Shown here in pieces: positions 49,519-57,016 of a stretch of 64,000 bases of DNA. Source of the DNA: Gemmobacter aquaticus (GTDB lineage Bacteria; Pseudomonadota; Alphaproteobacteria; Rhodobacterales; Rhodobacteraceae); the NCBI RefSeq assembly GCF_007859075.1, contig NZ_VOAK01000021.1, positions 124,001 to 188,000 of the forward strand, read 5' to 3'. The position numbers and the translations under genes were made by a program. Positions within the stretch are counted from its first letter, which is position 1. Every line of letters starts with the position of its first letter. The notes below the pieces were generated by a model that was not told the DNA's origin, did no database searches, and saw nothing but the letters and a program-made list of their open reading frames with translations.

Positions 49519-49586
49519 GGAGGCACTCCGGCTGACGTTCTGGCGCTTGGTCTGGCGTGATATGCAGGCAGGGAACGCACCCTGCC

Positions 49587-49600
49587 TTGACCTGTATCAA
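49587..49600 (-). promoter_or_regulatory. FNR box upstream of ccoG
   Basis: TTGAC-CTGT-ATCAA matches TTGAY-N4-ATCAA. A class II site would place the start of transcription near 49552, and CATATC (49564-49559, minus strand) fits a -10 element there. It would make ccoGHIS respond to the FnrL encoded at 56242. Confidence 0.85.
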
Positions 49601-49757
49601 AAATCGCATCGCCGATACATCTAAGCCATGCGTCAAAGTGCCCGCCAAGGGCTTTGATAACCATTGCCATGGCCCACCCACGCCTTTGACCGCCCGCCGG
49701 CGGGCTGTCATGCTGCGACGCAGGGTCGCGGGAGGGTGGCCCGACAAGGGGGGAAGC

Positions 49758-50438
49758 ATGGCAGACAAACGCAGCGTCGCACGGTCCGAGGAATTCAGCG
49801 CCGCTGAAATCGGTGCGCTCGCGCACCTTTACCGTGGCGAGGTCTATCGCTCGACCGTCTGGCGCACGCGGCTGGACACGACGACGAACTGGAGCGTGGT
49901 GACGCTTGGGGTGGCGCTTTCGATCACTTTCAGTTCACCCGGCGCCTCTCCGCTGCCGCTGATCCTTGTCGGCGTGCTGATCCTGCTTTTCCTTTCGCTT
50001 GAGGCCCGGCGCTATCGATACTTCAACGTCTGGCGGGCGCGGGCGCGCTGGATCGAGACGCATTTCTATGTGCCCATGCTGCGCGATGGCGATCTGCACA
50101 CCGAAGAAGACTGGCAGCGCGTTCTGGCTGAAGACTACCGCACGCCGCAATATCACGTCAGCTACATGACTGCCGTCGCTCGCCGCATCCGGTCAAACTA
50201 TCTGTGGATCCTGCTCATTCAGGCGTTGGCCTATGTGGGCAAGCTGATGGTCCATCCGGGTGCGGTATCGGGTTGGGATGAATTCGTCAGCCGCGCCGAT
50301 GTCGGTCCGGTGCCGGGCGAGGTCATGCTGCTTGCGGGTCTGGTCTACATCGCAATCTGGGGCGGTCTTGCCGCTTGGGTGACGATTGAGGACCAGCGAC
50401 GGGGCCGCAGGCGCGGGCAAGGCAGCTCCATGGGATGA
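49758..50438 (+). CDS. DUF2270 membrane protein
   Basis: A protein of about 226 residues. After a hydrophilic N-terminus (ALAHLYRGEVYRSTVWRTRL), two helices lie at about 45-85, a cytosolic middle contains RRYRYFNVWRARARWIETHF, and two further helices lie at about 140-160 and 185-205. The RGEVYRSTVWRTRLD motif is characteristic of DUF2270. Function unknown. The ATG at 49758 follows a GGGGGGA site. It diverges from ccoG; the FNR box between could also affect it. It converges on a LysR gene, separated by the candidate small RNA locus. Confidence 0.85.
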   Translation: MADKRSVARSEEFSAAEIGALAHLYRGEVYRSTVWRTRLDTTTNWSVVTLGVALSITFSSPGASPLPLILVGVLILLFLSLEARRYRYFNVWRARARWIETHFYVPMLRDGDLHTEEDWQRVLAEDYRTPQYHVSYMTAVARRIRSNYLWILLIQALAYVGKLMVHPGAVSGWDEFVSRADVGPVPGEVMLLAGLVYIAIWGGLAAWVTIEDQRRGRRRGQGSSMG

Positions 50439-50514
50439 AAGAAGGCACCGCTACCCCCAGGAAACGCGCGAACAGGATGGGGCGGCGGTGCCATGTCCAG
50501 CTTTGGGCCCGGAC
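50437..50514 (-). ncRNA. Candidate FnrL-dependent small RNA
   Basis: No annotated gene explains the FNR box at 50549-50562. Read on the minus strand, its centre lies 41.5 bases before position 50514, and TATGTT (50526-50521) sits where the -10 box belongs. The predicted transcript starts TGTCC, which pairs with GGACA to form hairpin 1. It then has GGCACCGC (50492-50485) pairing with GCGGTGCC (50451-50444), with an inner CCCC/GGGG stem, and ends TTCTTTC: a factor-independent terminator. Length is about 78 bases. The hairpin also lies 6 bases after the DUF2270 stop, so it may only be a terminator for the convergent genes. Direct transcript data are lacking. Confidence 0.45.
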
Positions 50515-50548
50515 ACATGAAACATAGACAGCCCGTGCTGCCACCACC

Positions 50549-50562
50549 TTGACCTGAATCAA
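50549..50562 (-). promoter_or_regulatory. Orphan FNR box overlapping the LysR stop codon
   Basis: TTGAC-CTGA-ATCAA differs from the ccoG box only inside the N4 spacer. It lies between two convergent genes, where an FNR site has no known target. On the minus strand a -10-like TATGTT is correctly spaced; on the plus strand none is seen. Confidence 0.75.
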
Positions 50563-51458
50563 GCGCGGGGCGGCACGGGCGGAAAAAACCCTGTGCCAGA
50601 CTGTCGCAGCACCCAGCGGGTAAAGGCTTTGACGGCGGCGCGTTGCGGACCGGGCCGCGTCACCAGAAAATAACCCTCCTTGTCCGGGTCCTCCATCAAC
50701 AGGCGCAGCCGGCCTGCCGCCAGATCACCCTCGACAAAGGCGCGCGCAACCACGGCCACCCCCTGCCCGTCGCGGGCGGCATCCAGCATCAGGTTGCCGG
50801 GAAGCGAGATGATCGCCGCCCCCTTGCGCCGCGTGAGGCCATTGCCATCCAAAAATGTGCTGGCCTCATTGGTGCCCAGTTCCTGCAACCATGGCAGTCC
50901 TGCCAGATGCGAGAGATCAGCAGCACGGTCTGCCGGCACCAGAGAGGGAGCGGCCACAACAACGATCGACGAGCGCAGGATCAACTGGGCATCAAGCCCC
51001 GGCCAGCCACCGTTGCCGTAGCGCAGGCCCACATCGGCCTCGCGACCGATCTCGCGCATCTCGGGGGCCGGATCGATGGCAATGTCGATCGCCGGATGAT
51101 GTGCGCGGAAGTCCGGCAGGCGCGGCATCAGCCAGCCGGCAGCAAAGGAGGGTGTGGTCGTTATGCGCAGCGGCGCCGTTTCATCGGCGCCCGTGATCTG
51201 CGCAATGGTCGTGGCGATCTGCGAGAACCCTTGGCTCAGCGCCTCGGCGAGCCGCTGGCCGTCGGCGGTCAGTGTCAATCTGCGGCCACCACGGTCAACC
51301 AGCGCCACCCCAAGCTCGCCCTCAAGTGCCCGGATCTGTTGCGAGATCGCGGCGTGCGTCACACCAATCCGCACGCCCGCCTGTTCCAGCGAACGCGCCT
51401 CGGCAAAGGCCGCAAAGGCCCTGAGGGCAGAGAGCGAGGGAAAGCGCCGCCAGTCCAT
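50559..51458 (-). CDS. LysR family transcriptional regulator, GcvA-like
   Basis: A 299-residue regulator. The N-terminal winged helix (1-65) has FPSLSALRAFAAFAEARSLE and then VTHAAISQQIRALEGELGVA, the recognition helix typical of GcvA-type LysR proteins. The effector domain begins near residue 92 (LRITTTPSFAAGWLMPRLPD), characteristic of the GcvA/AmpR group. Target and effector unknown. The divergent short gene at 51556 and the dyad at 51461 suggest autoregulation. Relative to R. sphaeroides, where I recall ccoNOQP adjoining rdxBHIS, this gene appears inserted between the two operons. Confidence 0.92.
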   Translation of the reverse strand: MDWRRFPSLSALRAFAAFAEARSLEQAGVRIGVTHAAISQQIRALEGELGVALVDRGGRRLTLTADGQRLAEALSQGFSQIATTIAQITGADETAPLRITTTPSFAAGWLMPRLPDFRAHHPAIDIAIDPAPEMREIGREADVGLRYGNGGWPGLDAQLILRSSIVVVAAPSLVPADRAADLSHLAGLPWLQELGTNEASTFLDGNGLTRRKGAAIISLPGNLMLDAARDGQGVAVVARAFVEGDLAAGRLRLLMEDPDKEGYFLVTRPGPQRAAVKAFTRWVLRQSGTGFFPPVPPRA

Positions 51459-51723: not shown

Positions 51724-52605
51724 TTACTCGCCGCCACCCAGGCTATGGACATAGACCGCAACGGCGCGAATCTCATCCTCGGTCAGGCGGGTATTCCAGT
51801 TCGGCATCACACCGAAACGGGCCTTGGTCACGGTTTCGGTCAGCGCCGCCCGGTCCCCACCAAACAGCCAGACAGCGTCGGTCAGGTTCGGCGCGCCCTG
51901 CGCCCGATCACCGGTTCCGTCTTCCATGTGGCAGGCGGTGCAGTTGTCGGTGAAGACCGTGGCACCAGCCGCGGCGCGGGTGGCGTCATGCTCCTGGCCC
52001 GAAAGCTGCAGCACATATTCCACCACATCCCCGATCTGCGTGGCATCCAGCAAACCGTCGGTCCCGAAGGCCGGCATCTGCGAATAGCGCGCATCCGCAT
52101 CGTCGGTGTTGCGGATCCCGTGGGTGATGGTGGTGTGGATCGACTCCATGTCGCCGCCCCACAGCCAGTCATCGTCCAGAAGGTTCGGGAAGCCGACGTT
52201 CCCGGCTGCACCCGCGCCGTGGCACTGGGCGCACCAGGTCTTGAACACGGCCGATCCAGCGGATTTGGCATAGGGGCCAAGTTCCGGATCGGCTGCAATC
52301 GCGTTCAGGTCGGCAGCGGTGAGCTTGGCCTTGATCGGGGCGTTCGCCTCGTCATAGCGCTTGATCTCGTCGCTGACAGCCAGGCGGGTATCACCGGCGG
52401 ATTCGGTGCCCACGATCCCTTGTGTCGCCCGCGAGATCATCGGCCATGCCGGATAGTAGATCGAATAGCCGATCGCCCAGATGATGGTCAGGTAGAACGT
52501 CCACAGCCACCAGCGCGGCATCGGATTGTCGAATTCCTGAATGCCGTCCCACTCATGGCCGGTGGTGCCCACCTCGCCGGGTTTCTTCACTTGCTTGGCG
52601 CACAT
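51724..52605 (-). CDS. ccoP: cbb3-type cytochrome c oxidase subunit CcoP (diheme)
   Basis: A 293-residue membrane-anchored diheme cytochrome c. A short N-terminal segment with [20 protein letters not shown] (the CcoP signature) precedes the single helix (about 33-52). Two periplasmic heme-binding motifs follow, CAQCH (about 125) and CTACH (about 220), with methionine axial ligands in SQMPAFG and GVMPNW. It passes electrons from cytochrome c to CcoO/CcoN. The ATG at 52605 follows AAGGAGG at 7 bases and lies 2 bases past the ccoQ stop. Confidence 0.97.
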
Positions 52606-52607
52606 GA

Positions 52608-52811
52608 TCACGCCTCCTTCTTGTTGCGGGCCGGCTCCGCAAGGTCGGGCGCCGGGCGCCGTTCATTGCGGAAGATCGAGTTGGCGGCATCGTCCTGAAG
52701 TTTCCGGCTGCCCGGGCGATAGGCAAAGAGCACGATCGCCACAAACAGAACGGTCATCAGGATCAGCACCCAGCTGTCTGCGAGCTGGCGGAGGAAGGAA
52801 TAGGTATCCAT
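52608..52811 (-). CDS. ccoQ: cbb3-type cytochrome c oxidase subunit CcoQ (FixQ)
   Basis: A 67-residue single-helix subunit (helix about 14-31: [20 protein letters not shown]), with the conserved FAYRPGSR just after the helix and a charged, cytoplasmic tail. It stabilises the oxidase and, in R. sphaeroides, is reported to protect it under oxygen. Third gene of ccoNOQP. The short gap to ccoO and the near-overlap with ccoP show tight coupling. Confidence 0.95.
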
Positions 52812-55261: not shown

Positions 55262-55275
55262 TTGATCCATATCAA
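55262..55275 (-). promoter_or_regulatory. FNR box proximal to ccoN
   Basis: TTGAT-CCAT-ATCAA is a perfect FNR consensus, 99 bases upstream of the ccoN ATG. A class II promoter would start near 55227. It probably drives ccoNOQP under low oxygen. Confidence 0.88.
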
Positions 55276-55293
55276 TGCAGTGATGGGTGTGGT

Positions 55294-55307
55294 TTGATCG
55301 AGGTCAA
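55294..55307 (+). promoter_or_regulatory. FNR box proximal to usp
   Basis: TTGAT-CGAG-GTCAA matches the FNR consensus with one transition. TATAGC at 55328-55333 lies where the -10 box of a plus-strand class II promoter should be (start near 55341), 30 bases before the usp ATG. Together with the ccoN box it forms a symmetric divergent FnrL control region. Confidence 0.8.
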
Positions 55308-56227: not shown

Positions 56228-56256
56228 GGCGTGCCGGATGCTTACTCCGGCACGCC
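56228..56256. terminator. Hairpin between usp and fnrL
   Basis: GGCGTGCCGG (56228-56237) pairs with CCGGCACGCC (56247-56256), loop 9 bases, between the convergent genes and overlapping the fnrL stop. There is no clear U-run, so termination is inferred. Confidence 0.55.
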
Positions 56257-56982
56257 GCCATCACTGTCGTCACCCGCCTCTTCCATCAGCCGTTCCAGAT
56301 CGGGGATGGTGACGTGACGCTTGCCATCAAGGATGATGACGCCATCGCGCTTGAGCGCGGAGATCTGGCGGCTGACCGTCTCAAGCGTCAGGCCCAGATA
56401 ATCGGCCATCTCTTCGCGCGTCAGCGGCAGATCAAAGACCAGCTGCCCCTTGGGCGCGCGCAGGCGTAGCGTGGCATCGCGTCGGGCGATGATGGCGAGC
56501 AGCGAGGCGATCTTTTCCCGCGCGGTCTTGCGGCCCAGAAGCAGCATCCATTCGCGTGCCGCATCCAGTTCGTCCAGCGTCATCTCCAACAAGCGTTGCG
56601 CGACATGCGGGGTGCTCAGCATAAGTTCTTCAAACGGGCGCTTGCGGAAGCAGCACATCACCAGATCAGTGGTCGCGGTGACGTCATAGGCGGCCGTCGC
56701 GCGGCCCGGCCTTCCGACAAAGTCCGACGGCAGCAGCAGACCCACCATCTGGCGGCGACCGTCTTCAAGTGTCTGCGTGAGCGTGGCGATGCCCGAGACG
56801 ACCGAGGCGACAAAATCCATCCGGTCACCTGACCAGATCACCGTCTGTCCCGCCTGATAGGACCGGTAGTACTTGATCTGCTCCAGCTTGTGCAGCTCAG
56901 CCGCATCGCAGCGCGAGCAGACCGCCCGGTGCCGGATGGGACATTCGACGCACTCATGGTGCTCGTGCTGCATGTCATGCAT
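56242..56982 (-). CDS. fnrL: FNR-type oxygen-sensing regulator FnrL
   Basis: A 246-residue Crp/Fnr regulator. The N-terminal cysteines C11, C14, C22 and C25 and the distal C110/C111 provide a [4Fe-4S] cluster that is destroyed by oxygen. The cAMP-type beta-barrel spans 30-130, the dimer helix about 130-160, and the recognition helix LTLETVSRQISALKRDG has the E..SR residues that read TTGAT. It should activate ccoNOQP, ccoGHIS, hemN and usp at low oxygen; the box at 57003, 21 bases upstream of its own ATG, fits negative autoregulation. Ribosome site is weak. Confidence 0.97.
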   Translation of the reverse strand: MHDMQHEHHECVECPIRHRAVCSRCDAAELHKLEQIKYYRSYQAGQTVIWSGDRMDFVASVVSGIATLTQTLEDGRRQMVGLLLPSDFVGRPGRATAAYDVTATTDLVMCCFRKRPFEELMLSTPHVAQRLLEMTLDELDAAREWMLLLGRKTAREKIASLLAIIARRDATLRLRAPKGQLVFDLPLTREEMADYLGLTLETVSRQISALKRDGVIILDGKRHVTIPDLERLMEEAGDDSDGGVPE

Positions 56983-57002: not shown

Positions 57003-57016
57003 TTGATCTTAATCAA
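57003..57016 (+). promoter_or_regulatory. FNR box between fnrL and hemN
   Basis: TTGAT-CTTA-ATCAA is a perfect FNR consensus. Its centre lies exactly 41.5 bases upstream of the A of the hemN ATG and 27.5 bases upstream of the fnrL start. This suggests class II activation of hemN and repression of fnrL. Confidence 0.88.

Follow-up and report, generated by a model that had tools for sequence, protein, structure and literature searches.

Positions 50514-50437 on the minus strand of the 64-kb window (the whole stretch of DNA analysed here) probably encode a discrete small RNA of two hairpins that, judged from sequence comparison, would be controlled by FnrL and is likely to act in trans through its loop. 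At low oxygen FnrL would switch this RNA on; we infer both its transcription and its dependence on FnrL. Within the genus, the RNA stands apart from ccoNOQP and would be made from a class II FnrL promoter of its own. In most relatives of our first set the module lies at the 3' end of ccoNOQP, whose mRNA is under FnrL control, and it would presumably be released from this mRNA. The RNA is predicted to end after the loop hairpin, the second of the two, which would expose a nearly invariant loop as the likely active part. Action in trans would most likely involve pairing of the loop core, UGUUCGCGC, with mRNAs, as FnrS or small RNAs derived from 3' UTRs do, and such pairing is in our judgement the likeliest mode of action. 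To the broader proposal of a family-wide, oxygen-responsive small RNA in the Rhodobacterales, reached by two interchangeable FNR routes and acting on conserved targets through its loop, we give slightly better than even credence.

The locus and its predicted promoter

Between the DUF2270 gene (49557-50438, plus strand) and the LysR gene (50559-51458, minus strand), which converge and whose names were both confirmed by Pfam, lies an FNR/FnrL box at 50549-50562 (TTGACCTGAATCAA; read on the minus strand, TTGATTCAGGTCAA), the putative promoter element of the RNA. Along the minus strand this box (50562-50549) is followed by a -10-like TATGTT (50526-50521), whose first base is 29 past the box centre, by the predicted start at 50514, by the first hairpin, by the second hairpin with its loop, and by TTCTTTC. 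The 5' hairpin pairs TGTCC with GGACA (50515-50511/50498-50494, minus strand). The main hairpin (50492-50444, minus strand), of the HRC-8-4 type discussed below, has a covarying stem, GGCACCGC/GCGGTGCC (50492-50485/50451-50444), an inner CCCC/GGGG stem and the nearly invariant loop UCCUGUUCGCGCGUUUCC (50477-50460), and the U-rich tail behind it (50443-50437) probably marks termination. The box between the convergent genes, the -10-like hexamer at class II spacing, both hairpins, the inner stem and the final TTCTTTC all lie exactly where a sequence-only reading of this DNA had put them. The same reading had predicted a start at about 50514. Class II spacing points to this position, and so does the onset of conservation: among the genus's 10 other genomes, eight have blastn matches that begin at query positions 56-58 (window positions 50515-50513), within one base of the prediction. 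At the other end, these alignments stop at query positions 113-139, mostly near the U-tail. The stop codon of LysR (50559-50561, minus strand) is overlapped by the box, and that of DUF2270 is reached by the last bases of the predicted RNA. A simple consensus scan gave no sigma-70 promoter, nor did it call the main hairpin a terminator.

The FNR-box pattern occurs five times in the window, against 0.05 expected. The other four boxes lie before ccoG (box at 49587-49600, gene at 49518-48076, both minus strand), as a pair (at 55262 and 55294, together spanning 55262-55307) in the interval between ccoN and a divergent universal stress protein gene, and in the interval between fnrL and hemN. The last of these is a perfect box, TTGATCTTAATCAA, at 57003-57016. 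The fnrL gene itself (56242-56982, minus strand) is assigned by the NCBIfam equivalog NF045989. The window's ccoP is at 51724-52611 (minus strand); the RNA lies directly behind this gene in the majority of the first-set relatives.

FNR boxes and the position of the RNA relative to ccoP

The presence of a box follows the position of the RNA relative to ccoP, a pattern that we refer to as the box rule. A copy was scored as behind ccoP when it lay no more than 110 nt from the end of the ccoP match, and a box was counted when it lay no more than 200 nt upstream of the loop. We considered 139 copies (the first 20 loci plus the matches listed, with repeats removed); the 11 copies with no cco, LysR or DUF2270 neighbour and the repeated contigs L027, L055, L073, L076 and L077 were removed before counting, and L102 was left out (locus edge). 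Among the matches listed (123 first copies), none of the 77 copies directly behind ccoP had a box of its own, whereas a box lay just upstream in 44 of the 45 copies separated from ccoP; in the 45th (L017), the box is centred 195 nt upstream, just beyond the counted range. Boxes have a background rate of 199 in 4427 windows of 200 nt, at which none in 77 is only mildly unusual (p 0.03), and the weight of the rule therefore rests on the 45. The rule was repeated in 30 weaker matches from the same family, which a model based on the first set had picked up and where a box was present in all nine separated copies and in none of the 21 behind ccoP; the 30 strongest fetched family loci (L145-L174) were left out of the box counts. 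Furthermore, a quick tree of CcoG that covers 105 of 152 loci shows 13 changes of setting, and its nine supported independent pairs all obey the rule (p 0.004).

Upstream of ccoN, an FNR box was present in all 39 adjacent loci among the matches listed that had the ccoN start and the preceding 400 nt in view. Binding of FnrL before ccoN has been found experimentally in R. capsulatus and R. sphaeroides, according to the available parts of two reports (PMC4634722, PMC4263372). For the separate copies, 53 promoters show a -10-like signal 29 bases past the box centre, which is the class II position: A2 and T6 are present there in 21 of the 53, and an A or T follows one base further on in 94%. A good -10 hexamer occupies this position in just four of the 53, so the signal is weak in many of them.

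The sequence-only reading depended on the box and the stems being kept in close relatives, and both are. The box lies within 250 nt upstream of the loop at 16 of the first 20 loci, the four others all being directly behind ccoP, and the stems covary, at 14 of 14 pairs. The FnrL-activated small RNA which that reading proposed accounts best for where a box occurs and where it is missing, and is supported as an account in which transcription and FnrL dependence are both predicted.

Distribution and structure of the two-hairpin module

A blastn search of 61 genomes with a query of 141 bases gave matches in 20: the genome under study, all 10 others of the genus and nine of the family. The 18-nt loop is identical in all 20, and the stems and flanks vary. 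Scanning an 84,980-species collection for this 18-mer returned at least 119 stretches, so that the first set samples the existing matches; genera represented among those listed include Paracoccus, Rhodobacter, Roseovarius and Shimia. In Paracoccus denitrificans, the copy (L090) has the 3' UTR form. A cco, LysR or DUF2270 neighbour was found for 128 of the 139 copies among the matches listed, and wherever ccoP and ccoG were both in view in these, the RNA always lay between them on the same strand. At L017 the neighbours are instead a stress-protein gene and FixI. Nine of the 11 neighbourless copies, from Verrucomicrobia, Rhizobium, Methylobacterium and the like, were rejected as chance, and the other two (L131 and L139) may be genuine. 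DUF2270 (antisense) and LysR recur in the family as optional inserts between ccoP and ccoG, either before or after the RNA.

With a covariance model, the genome under study contained a single copy (65.4 bits; the next match scored 18 bits). At E<=0.01 and with strict filters, the model matched 197 of 395 genomes of the family. The ccoO gene is present in 365 of the 395, and the RNA was found in none of the 30 genomes without it (20 listed and 10 read off as numbering gaps) versus 197 of the 365 with it (p 6e-10). When 20 model-negative genomes were inspected behind ccoP, four (L356, L367, L368 and L369) held a hairpin with the full or partial core, so that 197 is a lower bound, and no recognisable core stood behind ccoP in the remaining 16. 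Strong hairpins without the loop core are found behind ccoP in L351, L360, L362 and other model-negative genomes, and these could be either diverged copies or plain terminators. Loss or strong divergence of the RNA is common within the family. A class-wide draw of 289 genomes yielded 10 matches, three in the family and seven outside it (E 6e-4 to 9e-3); the seven were dismissed as chance, with no cco gene and no FNR box detected in the DNA examined.

For the predicted RNA the folding energy is -36.4 kcal/mol (z -2.42), and the whole plus strand folds no better than its shuffles (z -0.20). We aligned 60 diverse copies out of the 124 distinct ones among the matches listed. Each of the 14 stem pairs is altered at both positions in at least one of these sequences, 85.3% of the alignment cells at these pairs can pair, and the covariation score is 0.432, versus 0.237 for shuffled and at most 0.240 for slid alignments. 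Upstream of the main hairpin, a stem is predicted in all 21 own-promoter RNAs with short spacing (mean z -2.3; p<=0.1 in 19 of 21). At the loci behind ccoP, the mean z is -4.2 for the 32 nt that precede the main hairpin (p<=0.1 in 75 of 77, among the matches listed) and 0.14 for control segments 200 nt upstream; the z scores of these 5' segments come from plain letter shuffles. The two-hairpin module is thus present in both settings, free or behind ccoP. The invariance of the loop is partly circular, because the copies were found through it; among the 30 weaker family members, which were found with the covariance model, the core UGUUCGCGC is kept in 28 and GUUUCC in 11. After the stem, T is weakly enriched, with at least four T in eight bases in 66 of 128 copies among the matches listed versus 19 of 128 controls.

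Mode of action, rival explanations and known systems

Complements of the loop core are not enriched in the window (12 versus 12.4 expected, the RNA itself included) or in the genome under study (39+44 versus 47+62 for the reversed control). Complements with an ATG close behind occur in 31 of 37 genomes, at counts above the reversed control. These counts lend no support to pairing, because the reversed control does not resemble a ribosome-binding site and because there are as many in genomes from other families, where the RNA model gave nothing convincing. Three complement sites in the genome under study look like real ribosome-binding sites. At L212, around base 1500, an exact 12-nt complement of the loop (G000:C1:833951-833962) covers the ribosome-binding site in front of the gene for a 76-aa membrane protein that had no Pfam match; at L227 and L239, contiguous 10-nt complements lie at the putative ribosome-binding sites of what are presumably a SelO-like protein and a RamA-like corrinoid activator, respectively. 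Across 10 loci of the 76-aa protein, including our own, AACAGGAG precedes the gene in eight and a complement of at least 10 nt in three, and two of 14 loci of the RamA-like gene have the 10-nt complement. The sites at the 76-aa protein and the RamA-like gene, which are only partly conserved, may be regarded as the best leads. The 12-nt complement is no recurrent feature ahead of ccoG, ccoN, ccoO, ccoP, LysR or FixI: of 465 gene starts, 11 have it within two mismatches, five of them among the 105 ccoG starts.

Judging from its place, taxon and architecture, the main hairpin is HRC-8-4, a motif defined computationally from 160 representatives in the Rhodobacterales, between ccoNOQP and ccoGHIS (PMC8632094, RNA Biol 2021). 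The sequence-only reading, which knew of no described RNA here, is corrected on this point. The authors of HRC-8-4 speculated that it is a riboswitch or a terminator bound by HvrB, and reported that hvrB, when present, is always downstream of the motif (PMC8632094). In line with their suggestion, the module might be a cis switch embedded in a terminator (an HMP-PP or guanidine-IV riboswitch, or an HvrB-bound terminator) that controls the gene downstream; both the terminator-like stem with its conserved tip (PMC8632094) and the same-strand ccoG, which follows downstream in most of the listed loci that have it in view, agree with this. However, there is no co-directional gene immediately downstream in the window for such a switch to control, since DUF2270 is antisense and ccoG has its own box, and the opposite-strand DUF2270 is the next detected downstream gene both there and in 13 other loci among the matches listed. 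Likewise, an extra FNR box stands before ccoG, in the interval between it and the RNA, in 91 of 100 loci among the matches listed (in all 37 separated loci, and missing from nine of the 63 adjacent ones). Four loci among the matches listed (L025, L037, L041 and L096) carry two or three hairpins in tandem behind ccoP, about 91 nt apart in three of them and 286 nt apart in L041; the stems of the tandem copies differ, the loop is the same, and the later copies have no FNR box. The box of ccoG, the antisense DUF2270 and the tandem copies speak against a general role as a cis-acting switch, and such a switch would also leave the box rule without an explanation; we consider it unlikely. As the box rule argues against the riboswitch idea, bench work is redirected.

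It is very unlikely, in our estimation, that the module merely terminates transcription or stabilizes the 3' end of the gene upstream (LysR here, ccoP elsewhere), with the box incidental or belonging to another gene. Such a role would suit the position of the RNA, close after LysR here and directly after ccoP in 77 of 123 copies among the matches listed, and it would suit the raised T content after the stem, but a terminator does not need an invariant loop, and it leaves aside the box and -10-like signal of the modules that lie apart from ccoP. Moreover, the detected upstream gene (DUF2270) is antisense at L054, L074, L185 and L197. There is also an outside chance that the RNA is FnrL-controlled but that its loop, instead of pairing with mRNAs, is bound by a protein or forms a kissing dimer in which CGCGCG pairs with its own copy. 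This would accommodate the very strong constraint on a loop whose complement is neither enriched nor conserved, as well as the 6-bp self-duplex of the loop (-11.3 kcal/mol) and the presence of CGCGCG in 24 of the 30 weaker members; against it, CGCGCG has been lost in the other six, and none of the results suggests a protein partner.

If the module is indeed an FnrL-controlled small RNA that acts in trans, then making the high-affinity oxidase would automatically issue a regulatory RNA. An orphan motif would gain promoter logic and a testable function, as an FnrL-controlled small RNA tied to the cbb3 oxidase, and a large and environmentally important group would have its counterpart of FnrS. 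It would also provide a natural case of a regulatory RNA that has moved several times between the 3' end of an mRNA and an independent gene, with its control kept.

Rfam holds FnrS, and a search of the window at the gathering score returned a tRNA only, while a search of the region at E 10 gave no match to FnrS. A weak hit to CcsR1 (RF02791) scored 12 bits (E 1.6) against a gathering score of 65.3 and was taken as chance, as were weak scores to miRNA families. In the literature searched, which omits most subscription papers, a single paper names HRC-8-4; the main text of that paper (PMC8632094) does not contain 'Fnr', and the loop sequence had no match in the literature. The available parts of PMC6238624, PMC4809877, PMC4634722 and PMC8139620 describe no such RNA, those of PMC8625941 and PMC5398030 contain none of the terms sought, and Table 1 of PMC5107571 could not be mapped to the place of the RNA. 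Thus the motif is known, and neither its promoter rule, nor the module of two hairpins, nor the small RNA reading was found in print within a search that most subscription papers lie outside.

Compared with known systems, the RNA of the window and its relatives shares with HRC-8-4 the restriction to Rhodobacterales, the location between ccoNOQP and ccoGHIS, and a strong terminator-like stem with conserved nucleotides at its tip. Unlike in the description of HRC-8-4, there is a LysR gene upstream here, which we do not equate with hvrB, and the FNR promoter, the second hairpin and the small RNA reading go beyond that description. In E. coli, FNR activates the small RNA FnrS when oxygen is low, according to the available parts of PMC4263372 and PMC8139620, and our candidate resembles FnrS in being preceded by a putative FNR box at class II spacing. 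It differs from FnrS in having no Rfam match and in being tied to the cbb3 oxidase locus, in the relatives examined mostly to the 3' end of an mRNA. In R. sphaeroides, RSs0019 (Pos19) and RSs2461 are reported, in the part of PMC4263372 available, as separate small RNAs with FnrL bound at the putative promoter; we liken them to the present RNA by description and not by sequence. UdsC and other small RNAs of R. sphaeroides are reported to derive from 3' UTRs. UdsC, from the same bacterial order, is similar in being drawn from the 3' UTR of an mRNA, but different genes are involved, and the module described here also occurs as a free gene with a putative promoter of its own.
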